A stretch of 32,181 nt of DNA from positions 1-32,181 of the forward strand of contig MGDP01000016.1 in assembly GCA_001790955.1 (NCBI GenBank), read 5' to 3'. How positions within the stretch are numbered: position 1 is the stretch's first letter; every line of letters begins with the position of its first letter. Shown here piece by piece: positions 4,353 to 8,224 of the stretch. The DNA comes from Candidatus Tectomicrobia bacterium RIFCSPLOWO2_12_FULL_69_37. Its GTDB lineage: Bacteria; UBA8248. The position numbers and the translations under genes were made by a program. Under the pieces are notes generated by a model. The model was not told the origin of the DNA. It did no database searches and saw only the letters and a list, made by a program, of their open reading frames with translations.

Positions 4353-4442
4353 GTAGGATTTGGGTATCCGACGGATTCAGGGCTGCTCTTCAGCTTCCTC
4401 AGAGAACGCTCCGCCGGGTCTTTCATCGGTGAGGATTTCGCG

Positions 4443-5045
4443 ATGCCGCGGCTACCGTACTGCGACGAAGTGGAAACCCCTGCGGACGTGGCTCATCTCT
4501 TTCAGCAAAGCCGGGAACAGTGGGGAATCGTCCCGAATCTCTTCCGCATGATGGGCTACGCGCCCGCTTTTGTGGAGGCATGGCTCGCCAAGGACCGGGG
4601 CCTCCGCCTCGAACGCCTGAAGACCGGTGACATCGAGTTCGTGAAGCTGGAGGAGCTCGCGATCATCAAGGCCAGCGCGATCAACTCGTGCAGCCACTGA
4701 TACGGGCACAACGAGGAGCTCGGTCGGGCTCTCGGGTACACCGGGGAACAGATTGACCTGGTGACGGGCGACGGATGGCGGGAAAGCGGCCTTTTCAGCG
4801 AACGGGAGAAAGCGGTCATCGGCTGGGCGGAGGCGGTGACGCGGATGACCGCCAAGCGCGACGAGAATGCCTGGCGGGCCATGCTGCGGAATTTCAGCAT
4901 CAAAGACGTCGTCACCCTGACGGCTATCGCGGGTTTCACCAACTGCTCGAACCGGGTCGCCGAGGCGCTCCACCTGCTGCCGGAGCCCCCGGGCGAGAGA
5001 ATCAAGTTCCGGAGGGAGGATGGCGCGAAGCTCAACGTTGGGTGA
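4443..5045 (+). CDS. AhpD-like / carboxymuconolactone decarboxylase-family selenoprotein (UGA = Sec86)
   Basis: ATG at 4443 follows GGTGAGGA. The frame reads MPRLPYCDEV... to a TGA at 4698-4700 and then continues in the same frame, without another stop, to TGA 5043-5045: 200 residues including the UGA codon. The UGA sits in N-S-C-S-H-[UGA]-Y-G-H, precisely where CMD/AhpD proteins have the second Cys of the redox CxxC motif, giving Cys83-x-x-Sec86 and His89. The downstream half (GHNEELGRALG, FSEREKAVIGWAEAV, FTNCSNRVAEAL) is typical peroxidase-related CMD sequence and has not decayed. A SECIS-like hairpin follows the UGA. The expected role is thiol/selenol-based peroxide reduction or a related redox reaction. 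It is first in the plus-strand operon, before the TAXI receptor. Alternative: a Cys-to-stop mutation or sequencing error. Automatic annotation would stop at 4700 and might call a second fragment from GTG 4761. Confidence 0.75.
4712..4734 (+). promoter_or_regulatory. Bacterial SECIS-like hairpin downstream of the in-frame UGA
   Basis: C4712-G4734, G4713-C4733 and A4714-U4732 pair. G4715 is bulged. Then 4716-4721 pairs with 4731-4726 (six pairs including one U-G), closing a four-base GGUC loop (4722-4725). Twenty-one bases separate the UGA from the loop, inside the known 16-37 range for bacterial SECIS elements. The loop starts with G and includes GU, and a bulge interrupts the stem, all features SelB recognises in the E. 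coli fdhF element. Confidence 0.65.
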
Positions 5046-5118: not shown

Positions 5119-6096
5119 GTGAAGACAAGATCAACACTAGCCATAGCGGCAGCTTTCCTTTCCGCCACTGCCCTGCTTGCGGGGATGGCAGGCGCGGCTC
5201 CGAAAGCGACCATCACGTTCGGGGGCGCTTCCGCGGGCGGCTCCCTCCAGTTGGCGTCAAGCGCCTGGGCCGGCTTCATCATGAAGAACCACCCCGAGTT
5301 CCTCGTTAACGTTGAGACCACGGGGGGAGCCCTCGACAATTTCCGGCTCATCAACACGGGCGAGGTGGATCTGGGATGGGTTGATACGCCGACCCAATAC
5401 GATGGGAAAAAGGGCCTCGGGTGGGCGAAGGGCCGCAAGTACCTGGAAGTGAATACGTGCATTCCTTGGTATCTCGGCAAGACCGAAATGTGGACGGTGG
5501 GCGGAAAGAAACTGACGAAGCTCTCCGACTTGAACGGCAAAGTGATCAGCCCTGGGCCCGCCGCCGGACCCGCGAACTTCATACTCCGCGCCGTCGTTCA
5601 GGAGTTTGGCCTCAAGCCAAGGCGGATTGCCACCATAGGGTGGGGAGACGCCATCAACCAGCAAAAGGACGGCCTCATTGAAGTGGCAACCGTATCCACC
5701 ATCTCTCCCTGGGGGGCGCTCAAGGACCTGGAGCTCACCCACAAGGTCAATTTCTTCTATTTGAGCCGTGCAGAGCTGGAGCGCATCGTCAAGAAAAACC
5801 CCAAGTATTCCATCGCCACCACACCGCGCGGCACCTATAAGAATTTGGAGAGGGATGGCGAGTCCTTGGCGTGGGTGACGGCCATCATGTGCAAGCCGAG
5901 GCTTGATGCGGACTTGGTTTACAAGCTGGTCAAGGCGACCTTTGAAAAGAAGGAGGAGTTGACCAAGCTCATGGGCGTCTACGGGACTCAGCTCGGGTTC
6001 GAGAACATCAAATTTGGGAATGTCATGCCCTTCCACCCGGGAGCTGCCCGCTATTACAAGGAAAAGGGCATGCAACTCCCCAAGATGATCGAGTAG
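5119..6096 (+). CDS. TRAP transporter receptor, TAXI family
   Basis: The protein has 325 residues from GTG 5119, which follows GGGAGGG at 5104-5110; in-frame ATGs at 5077 and 5092 are possible but would bury the signal peptide. The N-terminus (KTRSTLAIAAAFLSATALLAGMAGA) is a Sec signal peptide, so the mature protein is periplasmic. The mature part begins TITFGGASAGGSLQLAS, the ligand-loop pattern of TAXI ('TRAP-associated extracytoplasmic immunogenic') receptors, and includes the conserved SPGPAAGPANF segment near residue 145. It should bind an organic acid or amino-acid-like ligand and hand it to the fused permease encoded 76 bases downstream. The ligand cannot be predicted. Upstream neighbour is the AhpD-like selenoprotein candidate. 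Confidence 0.9.
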   Translation: MKTRSTLAIAAAFLSATALLAGMAGAAPKATITFGGASAGGSLQLASSAWAGFIMKNHPEFLVNVETTGGALDNFRLINTGEVDLGWVDTPTQYDGKKGLGWAKGRKYLEVNTCIPWYLGKTEMWTVGGKKLTKLSDLNGKVISPGPAAGPANFILRAVVQEFGLKPRRIATIGWGDAINQQKDGLIEVATVSTISPWGALKDLELTHKVNFFYLSRAELERIVKKNPKYSIATTPRGTYKNLERDGESLAWVTAIMCKPRLDADLVYKLVKATFEKKEELTKLMGVYGTQLGFENIKFGNVMPFHPGAARYYKEKGMQLPKMIE

Positions 6097-6134: not shown

Positions 6135-6156
6135 AAGATGTTCCGGGGAACATCTT
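6135..6156 (+). promoter_or_regulatory. Intercistronic hairpin between TAXI receptor and permease
   Basis: AAGATGTTCC (6135-6144) and GGAACATCTT (6147-6156) are perfect inverted repeats around GG, giving a stem of about 9 bp with a CGGG loop. It lies 38 bases after the receptor stop and 5 bases before the permease ribosome site (GGAGAGG, 6162). No U-run follows. Such structures often stabilise receptor mRNA or reduce permease translation, giving the excess of receptor that binding-protein transporters need; that role is inferred. Confidence 0.5.
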
Positions 6157-6172
6157 GCTCCGGAGAGGCGGC

Positions 6173-8224
6173 GTGAACGATCCGCAAAAAATCGAGACTC
6201 GCGTTACGGTGCAAGACGAGCCGGGCCCGATGCAGCGGACGCTCGGAGAGGCGGTGGCCGCGGGTCTGCTTGTGTTCGGCGTGGCCATGTCGCTGTTTCA
6301 CATCATCGGCCTTGGATTCTATCCTGTCGATCCGATCGCCCTGCGGTCGGTGCACCTGCTCATCCCCCTTGTGCTGGTTTTCGCTCTGCTGAAAAGGGGC
6401 AAGCGCAGCCCCGGAAGACGAATGTCCGTTTTTGATTGGGTGGCGATTGGAGCCGGCCTCGTCGCAGTCGCTTACACCGTTACCCACACCGAAGAGATCC
6501 AGTTCAGCGCGGCCTCCGTGCCGGACGCGTGGATGATCACGGCGGGAGCCCTGCTGACCCTGCTCACCCTGGAAGCGACCCGGAGGATCATTGGCCTGCC
6601 CCTGGTCGTCATCGCCGTCATATTCTTGTTGTATGCCTACCTGGGGCCGTATTTCCCGGGCATGCTGGAACACAGGGGGAAGAGCCTGGGCAGGATATCC
6701 GGATACCTGCTCAGCGACAACGGCCTCTTTGGCGTTCCGATCCACGCTTCAGCAGCTTACGCGTTCCTGTTCGTTCTATTCGGGGGATTTCTGCGCGCTA
6801 CGGGCGTGAGCAGCGTTTTCATGGATCTGGCCTTCGCGTTCGCGGGGCGGACCCGGGGCGGGCCCGCCAAGGTTGCGATCATTTCCAGCTGCCTGTTTGG
6901 AACCATCTCGGGGAGCGGGATCGCGAACGTGGTCACGACCGGCTCGCTGACCATCCCACTGATGAAGAAGACGGGGTACAAGCCTCACTTCGCGGGCGCA
7001 GTGGAGTCCATCGCCTCGAGCGGCGGAATGATCACGCCTCCCGTCATGGGCTCCGCCGCCTTCATCATGGCCGAGATGCTGAACATTCCCTACTACGAGG
7101 TCATCCTGGCCGCTGCGATACCGGCGTTCATTTATTATGCCGCTCTGTTTTGGATGGTCGATTTCGAGGCGGCGCGCGAAGGCCTCGTGGGACTTCGGAG
7201 GGAGGAATTGCCGAATGCGCGGCAGGTCCTCACGAGCAGCGGTTACCTCCTCATACCTCTCGGAGTGTTAATTTATGTTCTTGTCGTCGAGTTCTCGAGT
7301 CCCATACGGGCGTCCCTCCTTTCCATGGTCGCCTCCATTGGCGTCGTTTGGGTGAAAGAAGCGGTCGATTATTTCCGCGCGGAAGGCCTTTCGGGCGCCC
7401 ATCCCTTTGCCTTGGCCAGGGCGATGATTCGGGGCCTCTTCGACAAGAAAAAGCCGATGAGCCTTCCCGGCATGTTCGGAGCCCTTGCGGAGGGGCCGAG
7501 GGGCATGATGGAGGTTGCGGCGGCATGCGCCACGGCGGGTGTTGTCGTGGGCATGATTTCGTTGACGGGAGTGGGCCTCAAGTTCGCCGCGTTGCTCATC
7601 GATCTTTCGGGCGGGCATCTTTTCCCCGCCCTCGTCTTGACCATGATCGTTTGCATCATTCTCGGGATGGGCCTTCCTGCAACCGCATCCTATATCGTGA
7701 CCGTGGCGGTCGCGGCTCCGGCGCTCATCAAGATGGGCGTGTCCCCTCTCGCGGCGCACATGTTCGCCTTCCATTTTTCCATAGTGTCCGGCACCACGCC
7801 CCCGGTGGCGCTTGCCGCCTATGCGGCCGCGGCCATTGCGAAGACGAGCCCGCTCGCGGTCGCATTCACCGGGATGCGGATCGGAATCGTCGCCTTTGTG
7901 GTTCCGTTCATGTTCGTTTACGCTCCGCCGCTCCTCATGGCGGGGTCGCCCGGGGAAGTGGCGGTCGCCACTGTCACGGCGTTCGTCGGGTGCATTCTCT
8001 TGGCCGCCGGAATCCAGGGGATCATGCTGGTCAAGGCGGAATTTGCTGACCGGGCGTTGTTCCTCGTTGCGTCCATGCTTCTTATCTTTCCGGGTTTCTA
8101 TACCGACATGACTGGTCTTGGCCTCGCGGCTGTTGGCCTGTTGATCCAATTCCGCCGAAAGGTGCGGTTGCGGCTTTCCGGGAGCGCGTTTGCTCCCGTC
8201 GCTCCCTCGTCACCGAAAGAATAG
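6173..8224 (+). CDS. TRAP transporter permease, fused small (4TM) and large (12TM) subunits
   Basis: About 683 residues from GTG 6173 (GGAGAGG four bases upstream); TTG 6155 is an alternative start but sits in the hairpin arm. The protein is almost entirely hydrophobic. The first ~170 residues form the DctQ-like part, and the rest is the DctM-like channel with the conserved stretches FGTISGSGIANVVTTG, SSGGMITPPVMGSAAFIMAE and ILGMGLPATASYIVTVAVAAPAL. This fused arrangement goes with TAXI receptors, matching the gene just upstream. It should drive Na+- or H+-coupled uptake of the receptor's ligand across the inner membrane. It ends 20 bases before the acyl-CoA dehydrogenase, suggesting that imported substrate enters CoA-ester metabolism. 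Confidence 0.93.
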   Translation: MNDPQKIETRVTVQDEPGPMQRTLGEAVAAGLLVFGVAMSLFHIIGLGFYPVDPIALRSVHLLIPLVLVFALLKRGKRSPGRRMSVFDWVAIGAGLVAVAYTVTHTEEIQFSAASVPDAWMITAGALLTLLTLEATRRIIGLPLVVIAVIFLLYAYLGPYFPGMLEHRGKSLGRISGYLLSDNGLFGVPIHASAAYAFLFVLFGGFLRATGVSSVFMDLAFAFAGRTRGGPAKVAIISSCLFGTISGSGIANVVTTGSLTIPLMKKTGYKPHFAGAVESIASSGGMITPPVMGSAAFIMAEMLNIPYYEVILAAAIPAFIYYAALFWMVDFEAAREGLVGLRREELPNARQVLTSSGYLLIPLGVLIYVLVVEFSSPIRASLLSMVASIGVVWVKEAVDYFRAEGLSGAHPFALARAMIRGLFDKKKPMSLPGMFGALAEGPRGMMEVAAACATAGVVVGMISLTGVGLKFAALLIDLSGGHLFPALVLTMIVCIILGMGLPATASYIVTVAVAAPALIKMGVSPLAAHMFAFHFSIVSGTTPPVALAAYAAAAIAKTSPLAVAFTGMRIGIVAFVVPFMFVYAPPLLMAGSPGEVAVATVTAFVGCILLAAGIQGIMLVKAEFADRALFLVASMLLIFPGFYTDMTGLGLAAVGLLIQFRRKVRLRLSGSAFAPVAPSSPKE

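Follow-up and report, generated by a model that had tools for sequence, protein, structure and literature searches.

AhpD-like selenoproteins in which selenocysteine (Sec) occupies the second Cys position of the CxxC motif (CxxU) were described in 2005 (PMC1088965). AhpD-like 1 and 2 were recorded in GOS, where CxxU AhpD-like proteins rank with the most common selenoproteins of the sea (PMC2398784), AhpD-like selenoproteins account for 9.5% in PMC9402790, and the catalogue of a 2026 review contains a CxxU entry under TIGR01926 (PMC13188914). Sec and Cys forms usually coexist in the family, as in GOS AhpD-like 1 with its 299 Sec and 902 Cys homologues (PMC2398784).

The gene reported here lies in a window of 32,181 nucleotides, the whole stretch of DNA analysed, and is almost certainly a further CxxU AhpD-like selenoprotein of the kind known since 2005. 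Like the described members, which are abundant in marine samples, it would have Sec at the second Cys, and a SECIS element whose small loop contains G lies downstream. The gene falls in a clade with the motif U-x-x-H-N (hereafter CxxU-xx-HN), which has one residue fewer before the His than the known proteins and differs from them also in its GGUC loop at +21, fixed in most copies, and in reaching 13 UGA copies per genome. The published GOS AhpD-like sequences may include this clade. Two described (seleno)protein families, NF053654 (YciW-related (seleno)protein) and NF041238 (AhpD_rel_CFYUT), share active-site homology with the window protein, which scores far under their cut-offs (39 bits against 310 and 22.5 bits against 175, respectively) and is a member of neither; no NCBIfam seleno model matched it at cut-off.

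An in-frame UGA at the active site of an AhpD-fold protein

The frame, opening with ATG, holds exactly one internal TGA (Table 1), at the position and in the N-S-C-S-H-U-Y-G-H context that the earlier note had given; the product reads INSCSHUYGHNEELGRALG around Sec. The placement of this UGA at the second Cys of CxxC also proved correct, as U86 aligns with that Cys in solved structures and Cys homologues elsewhere carry their Cys in the residue 86 column.

Table 1. Coordinates of the predicted selenoprotein locus and adjoining features in the window
Feature	Position	Strand	Remarks
GAGG motif resembling a ribosome-binding site	4431..4434	+	8 nt 5′ of ATG 4443; from sequence
AhpD-like selenoprotein gene	4443..5045	+	200 codons with UGA read through; terminal stop TGA 5043-5045
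Predicted Sec codon UGA (residue 86)	4698..4700	+	C83-S-H-U86-Y-G-H89-N90
Putative bacterial SECIS hairpin	4712..4734	+	9 bp; bulged G 4716; GGUC loop 4722-4725
TAXI-type solute-binding protein (NMT1_3)	5119..6096	+	PF16868, 6.6e-47; start GTG 5119 picked by eye
Fused TRAP transporter (DctM)	6155..8224	+	PF06808, 3.8e-88; context only

Profile searches placed the protein near TIGR01926 (3.3e-12; 46.6 bits, below the 81.8-bit cut-off) and the CMD domain PF02627 (20.7 bits, below the 23-bit cut-off), and its sequence matched the solved AhpD-like structures 2gmy (2.3e-13) and 2oyo (3.5e-12). An AlphaFold2 model (mean pLDDT 91.7) showed the all-helical AhpD fold and was matched by Foldseek with probability 1.00 to 2prr, 2gmy, 6k40, 2oyo and 3c1l. 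The CxxC AhpD/peroxidase-related proteins among these (2prr, 6k40, 2gmy, 2oyo) share the fold and the position of the motif, but have Cys for Sec and one more residue before the His.

The motif and its catalytic His are found as C83-x-x-U86-x-x-H89, one residue shorter from U to His than the C-x-x-x-H of Cys homologues, so that the catalytic His may have a different geometry. Among Sec homologues of other lineages, three genomes (G102, G370 and G224) have the longer spacing CxxU-xxx-H and three (G379, G065 and G302) lack the His. Judged from these comparisons and those below, the UGA is almost certainly decoded as Sec in an AhpD-fold redox protein, an estimate that leaves the peroxidase step aside.

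Predicted activity and gene neighbourhood

By analogy with AhpD, the simplest reading is an AhpD-type chemistry in which attack would come from the Sec86 selenolate, Cys83 would serve as the resolving residue by forming a Se-S bond with it, and His89 and Asn90 would take part in proton transfer. Such chemistry would make the protein a thiol/selenol redox enzyme, for which we favour, with moderate confidence, a role as peroxidase or peroxidase-linked reductase. The peroxidase role is read from fold and motif, the scores lying under the TIGR01926 and Pfam CMD cut-offs. Two paralogues (L047, L048) read SDYU, with Ser for the first Cys and Sec retained, suggesting that some paralogues can do without the resolving Cys.

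The debrominase Bmp8 was also among the Foldseek matches (6ohi and 6ohj; TM 0.66-0.68), and its shared fold makes reduction of an organic substrate a live alternative. The protein would then be a real selenoprotein other than a peroxidase, namely a substrate-specific selenol redox enzyme in catabolic or transport clusters, for example a Bmp8-like reductive dehalogenase or another AhpD-fold enzyme; we regard this as possible, though on the doubtful side. Paralogues adjoin molybdopterin dehydrogenases, Gfo/Idh/MocA oxidoreductases, short-chain dehydrogenases, small CMD proteins, TctA/TRAP/ABC transporters, and RNase PH with Ham1, and none of the neighbours examined was recognised as ahpC-like; the many diverged copies per genome likewise suggest different substrates. 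However, peroxidase-related proteins give the best matches in fold and in sequence, and the neighbours vary between subfamilies and so imply no single substrate. Neighbour genes were, moreover, called with a home-made codon model, and the starts of neighbours and paralogues came from simple scripts.

The selenoprotein gene lies 73 nt 5′ of the TAXI gene on the same strand, and the earlier note had placed it at the head of a TRAP/TAXI operon. We dropped this functional link, which is unsupported: close orthologues in three related genomes have other neighbours, with TAXI/TRAP genes not adjoining. PADLOC returned no match.

Two arrangements recurred around the paralogues. One AhpD-Sec paralogue of the window's genome lies directly 3′ of RNase PH and a Ham1-type pyrophosphatase (L080 1162-3139, G000:C103), and about 13-14 genomes have this placement in a housekeeping neighbourhood. 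A family of 249-residue proteins without Pfam match (L104 1795-2541) adjoins 22 AhpD-Sec copies on the same strand, 13 times upstream and 9 times downstream.

The UGA codon is conserved in relatives

The protein query was searched against 146 genomes. Every one of the 17 further genomes in the window's bacterial family gave matches (1-15 each), and almost all of these matches had a single internal TGA. The TGA was kept in 3/3 of the closest orthologues, which come from separate genomes and are 76-79% identical to the window protein. The earlier note had raised the possibility that homologues end at this stop, or have TGC or TGT at the codon; the orthologues run on beyond the UGA and none has either Cys codon.

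We then compared 127 distinct AhpD-like stretches from the window's bacterial family and one outside genome. The aligned Sec column held TGA in 123 of them; of the other four, 3 had Cys and 1 had Phe. Of the three Cys cases, two come from fused or adjacent copies, where they form the second domain and have lost the first Cys too. In an alignment of 54 sequences, Sec86, H89, N90, G94, G98 and W128 were invariant and the first Cys variable. A tree with outgroups gave a CxxU-xx-HN clade of 34 rows that requires one loss of Sec, in one pair of rows.

These data bear on the reading of the UGA as a true stop, by way of a pseudogene, a sequencing error or an 85-residue product. TGA is an ordinary terminator in this lineage, ending about a third of the AhpD-like genes compared (43/121), but the codon in question is TGA in over 120 copies, drawn from 18 related genomes, frame and sequence are conserved on both sides of it, and the hairpin that follows covaries, which makes a true stop extremely improbable. 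Sequencing error and pseudogene were rejected because the TGA is kept in orthologues and in those 123 stretches.

Fused double-domain AhpD-like frames were seen in genome G008 (L079 16051-17478 and L120, − strand); domain 1 carries the UGA and domain 2 reads S-x-x-C, the sole Sec loss found in the clade. A paralogue in the window's genome (L083 2404-3027, G000:C39, − strand) has a second in-frame TGA near its N-terminus, which is probably due to a misplaced start or a frameshift and not to a second Sec.

A covarying hairpin follows the UGA codon

The published bacterial SECIS model asks for a loop of 3-9 nt with G in its first two positions, an upper stem of 4-16 bp, and a loop 16-37 nt from the UGA (PMC13188914). 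The hairpin agrees with all of these constraints: its loop starts 21 nt after the UGA, and the spacing, loop and 9 bp with one bulge described in the earlier note were all correct. An Rfam search of the window gave no match.

Folding of the single sequence was modestly above chance (z −1.84; 10/200 shuffles equally good). An energy-only SECIS scan gave a median of −11.0 kcal/mol at UGA sites against −7.9 kcal/mol at other codons of the same genes. UGA sites were not cleanly separated gene by gene, and for this reason we relied on codon and covariation tests instead.

The tetraloop at +21 was GGTC in 100/121 copies, and its glycine codon was GGT in 100/121, compared with 93/1084 for the glycines that these genes encode elsewhere. 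In the closing pair, nt 20, a mostly silent base at the third position of codon +7, faces nt 25, which is the middle base of codon +9, a Gln/Arg codon. The two bases were T-A in 55 copies, C-G in 62, T-G in 2 and C-A in 0 (Fisher p 4.6e-32 when relatedness is disregarded, and p 0.002 for representatives sharing less than 60% identity). Over 49 distinct sequences of the 5-bp helix, 90.6% of cells were paired, compared with 26-58% for slid helix controls; double-change cells numbered 44 against 16.1 expected, and the covariation score was 0.521 against 0.262. None of 500 shuffles reached the paired fraction, the double changes or the covariation score. A tree-aware analysis gave 4 concordant and 0 discordant independent pairs, too few for significance alone.

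We also scanned about 2 Mb (both strands counted), mostly of this bacterial family, for TGA followed after 15-33 nt by a GGTC-loop hairpin in coding-like frames. All of the 79 distinct sites (79/79) fell at the U-x-x-H-N motif, and none was found away from it in the sequence scanned. Where single-sequence folding is too weak, these comparative data are decisive for the reality of the predicted hairpin. Together, the comparisons and the covariation strongly support a selenoprotein of the AhpD-like type that carries Sec in the second Cys position of CxxC and has a bacterial SECIS.

The E. coli fdhF SECIS likewise has a GGUC element in its apical loop shortly after the UGA. In the window GGUC lies 3 nt (one codon) farther from the UGA and forms the entire tetraloop, closed in the clade by C-G or U-A. 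By the proposed mechanism, SelB would bind the GGUC-loop hairpin 3′ of the UGA and bring Sec-tRNA(Sec), so that the UGA would be decoded as Sec86.

Sec machinery and genetic code

The earlier note had suggested looking for selA, selB, selC and selD in the same genome (3.3 Mb in 228 contigs, 91.6% complete). Three of the four are present: selA (550.6 bits), selD (330.3 bits), and tRNA-SeC (selC), which lies at the very start of a contig (75.2 bits) and was also identified by ARAGORN. selB was not found in the 91.6% complete assembly, and none of the other EF-like matches, judged by score and length, came up to the selB cut-off.

selB is present at full length in 14/17 relatives, where the order is selA, alpha/beta hydrolase, selB. 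Contig C200 of the window's genome stops 162 nt into the hydrolase, which is 89% identical to the copy from the same genus. Since the contig breaks where selB comes next in relatives, the absence of selB most likely reflects an assembly gap. selB was not seen within 1.5 kb of selC in relatives.

Stop codons of the 121 AhpD-like genes were TAG in 53, TGA in 43 and TAA in 25, indicating that TGA is an ordinary stop in this lineage and that the code is not changed. Genome-wide reassignment of UGA, or a suppressor inserting another amino acid, could appeal only to the in-frame TGA itself and has a negligible probability, given the 43 genes that TGA terminates, the position of the in-frame TGA at the catalytic Cys column with a SECIS-form hairpin following, and the presence of tRNA-SeC, selA and selD; code reassignment was rejected on the first of these grounds.

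In no fewer than 12 family genomes, the alpha/beta hydrolase separates selA from selB (L165 7673-11891, L146-L159). The selD gene of the window's genome has its own in-frame TGA, in GGUGSK (L016, G000:C62:962-1924, − strand; VKAGGUGSKLG), and its SelD is, judged from this sequence, likely itself a selenoprotein.

Multiple Sec copies and few Cys versions

The CxxU-xx-HN clade has at least 6 copies in the window's genome, and the maximum per genome was at least 13 AhpD-like copies with TGA, in G008; the genomes are fragmented, so copy numbers are lower bounds, and reported contamination in the family is 2-8%. Unusual and less expected in the clade are these many Sec copies per genome and the almost complete lack of Cys versions. 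That Sec was almost never replaced by Cys suggests that the chemistry needs Sec. It is quite possible, if short of probable, that this marine lineage radiated Sec-dependent CxxU-xx-HN paralogues, with their GGUC SECIS at +21, over catabolic and transport clusters, as substrate-specialised selenoenzymes and not as one antioxidant.

A literature search, thin on subscription papers, found no report of a many-copy Sec clade with few Cys versions, and nothing relevant on the lineage and selenoproteins. Standard gene calling splits genes at UGA, as did the simple gene caller used here, and such clades are therefore easily missed. Sec retained through many duplications, with SECIS elements that stay very alike between diverged paralogues, amounts to a natural experiment on the conditions under which Cys fails to substitute for Sec, and the clade supplies a covarying set of SECIS elements for testing what SelB reads.

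The window's genome also contains a tandem AhpD-like pair (L205/L206, G000:C49:4617-5790). One copy reads CNYUGNVR, with a UGA, no His and a GGC-loop hairpin; the other reads TYFANLR, with neither Sec nor Cys.
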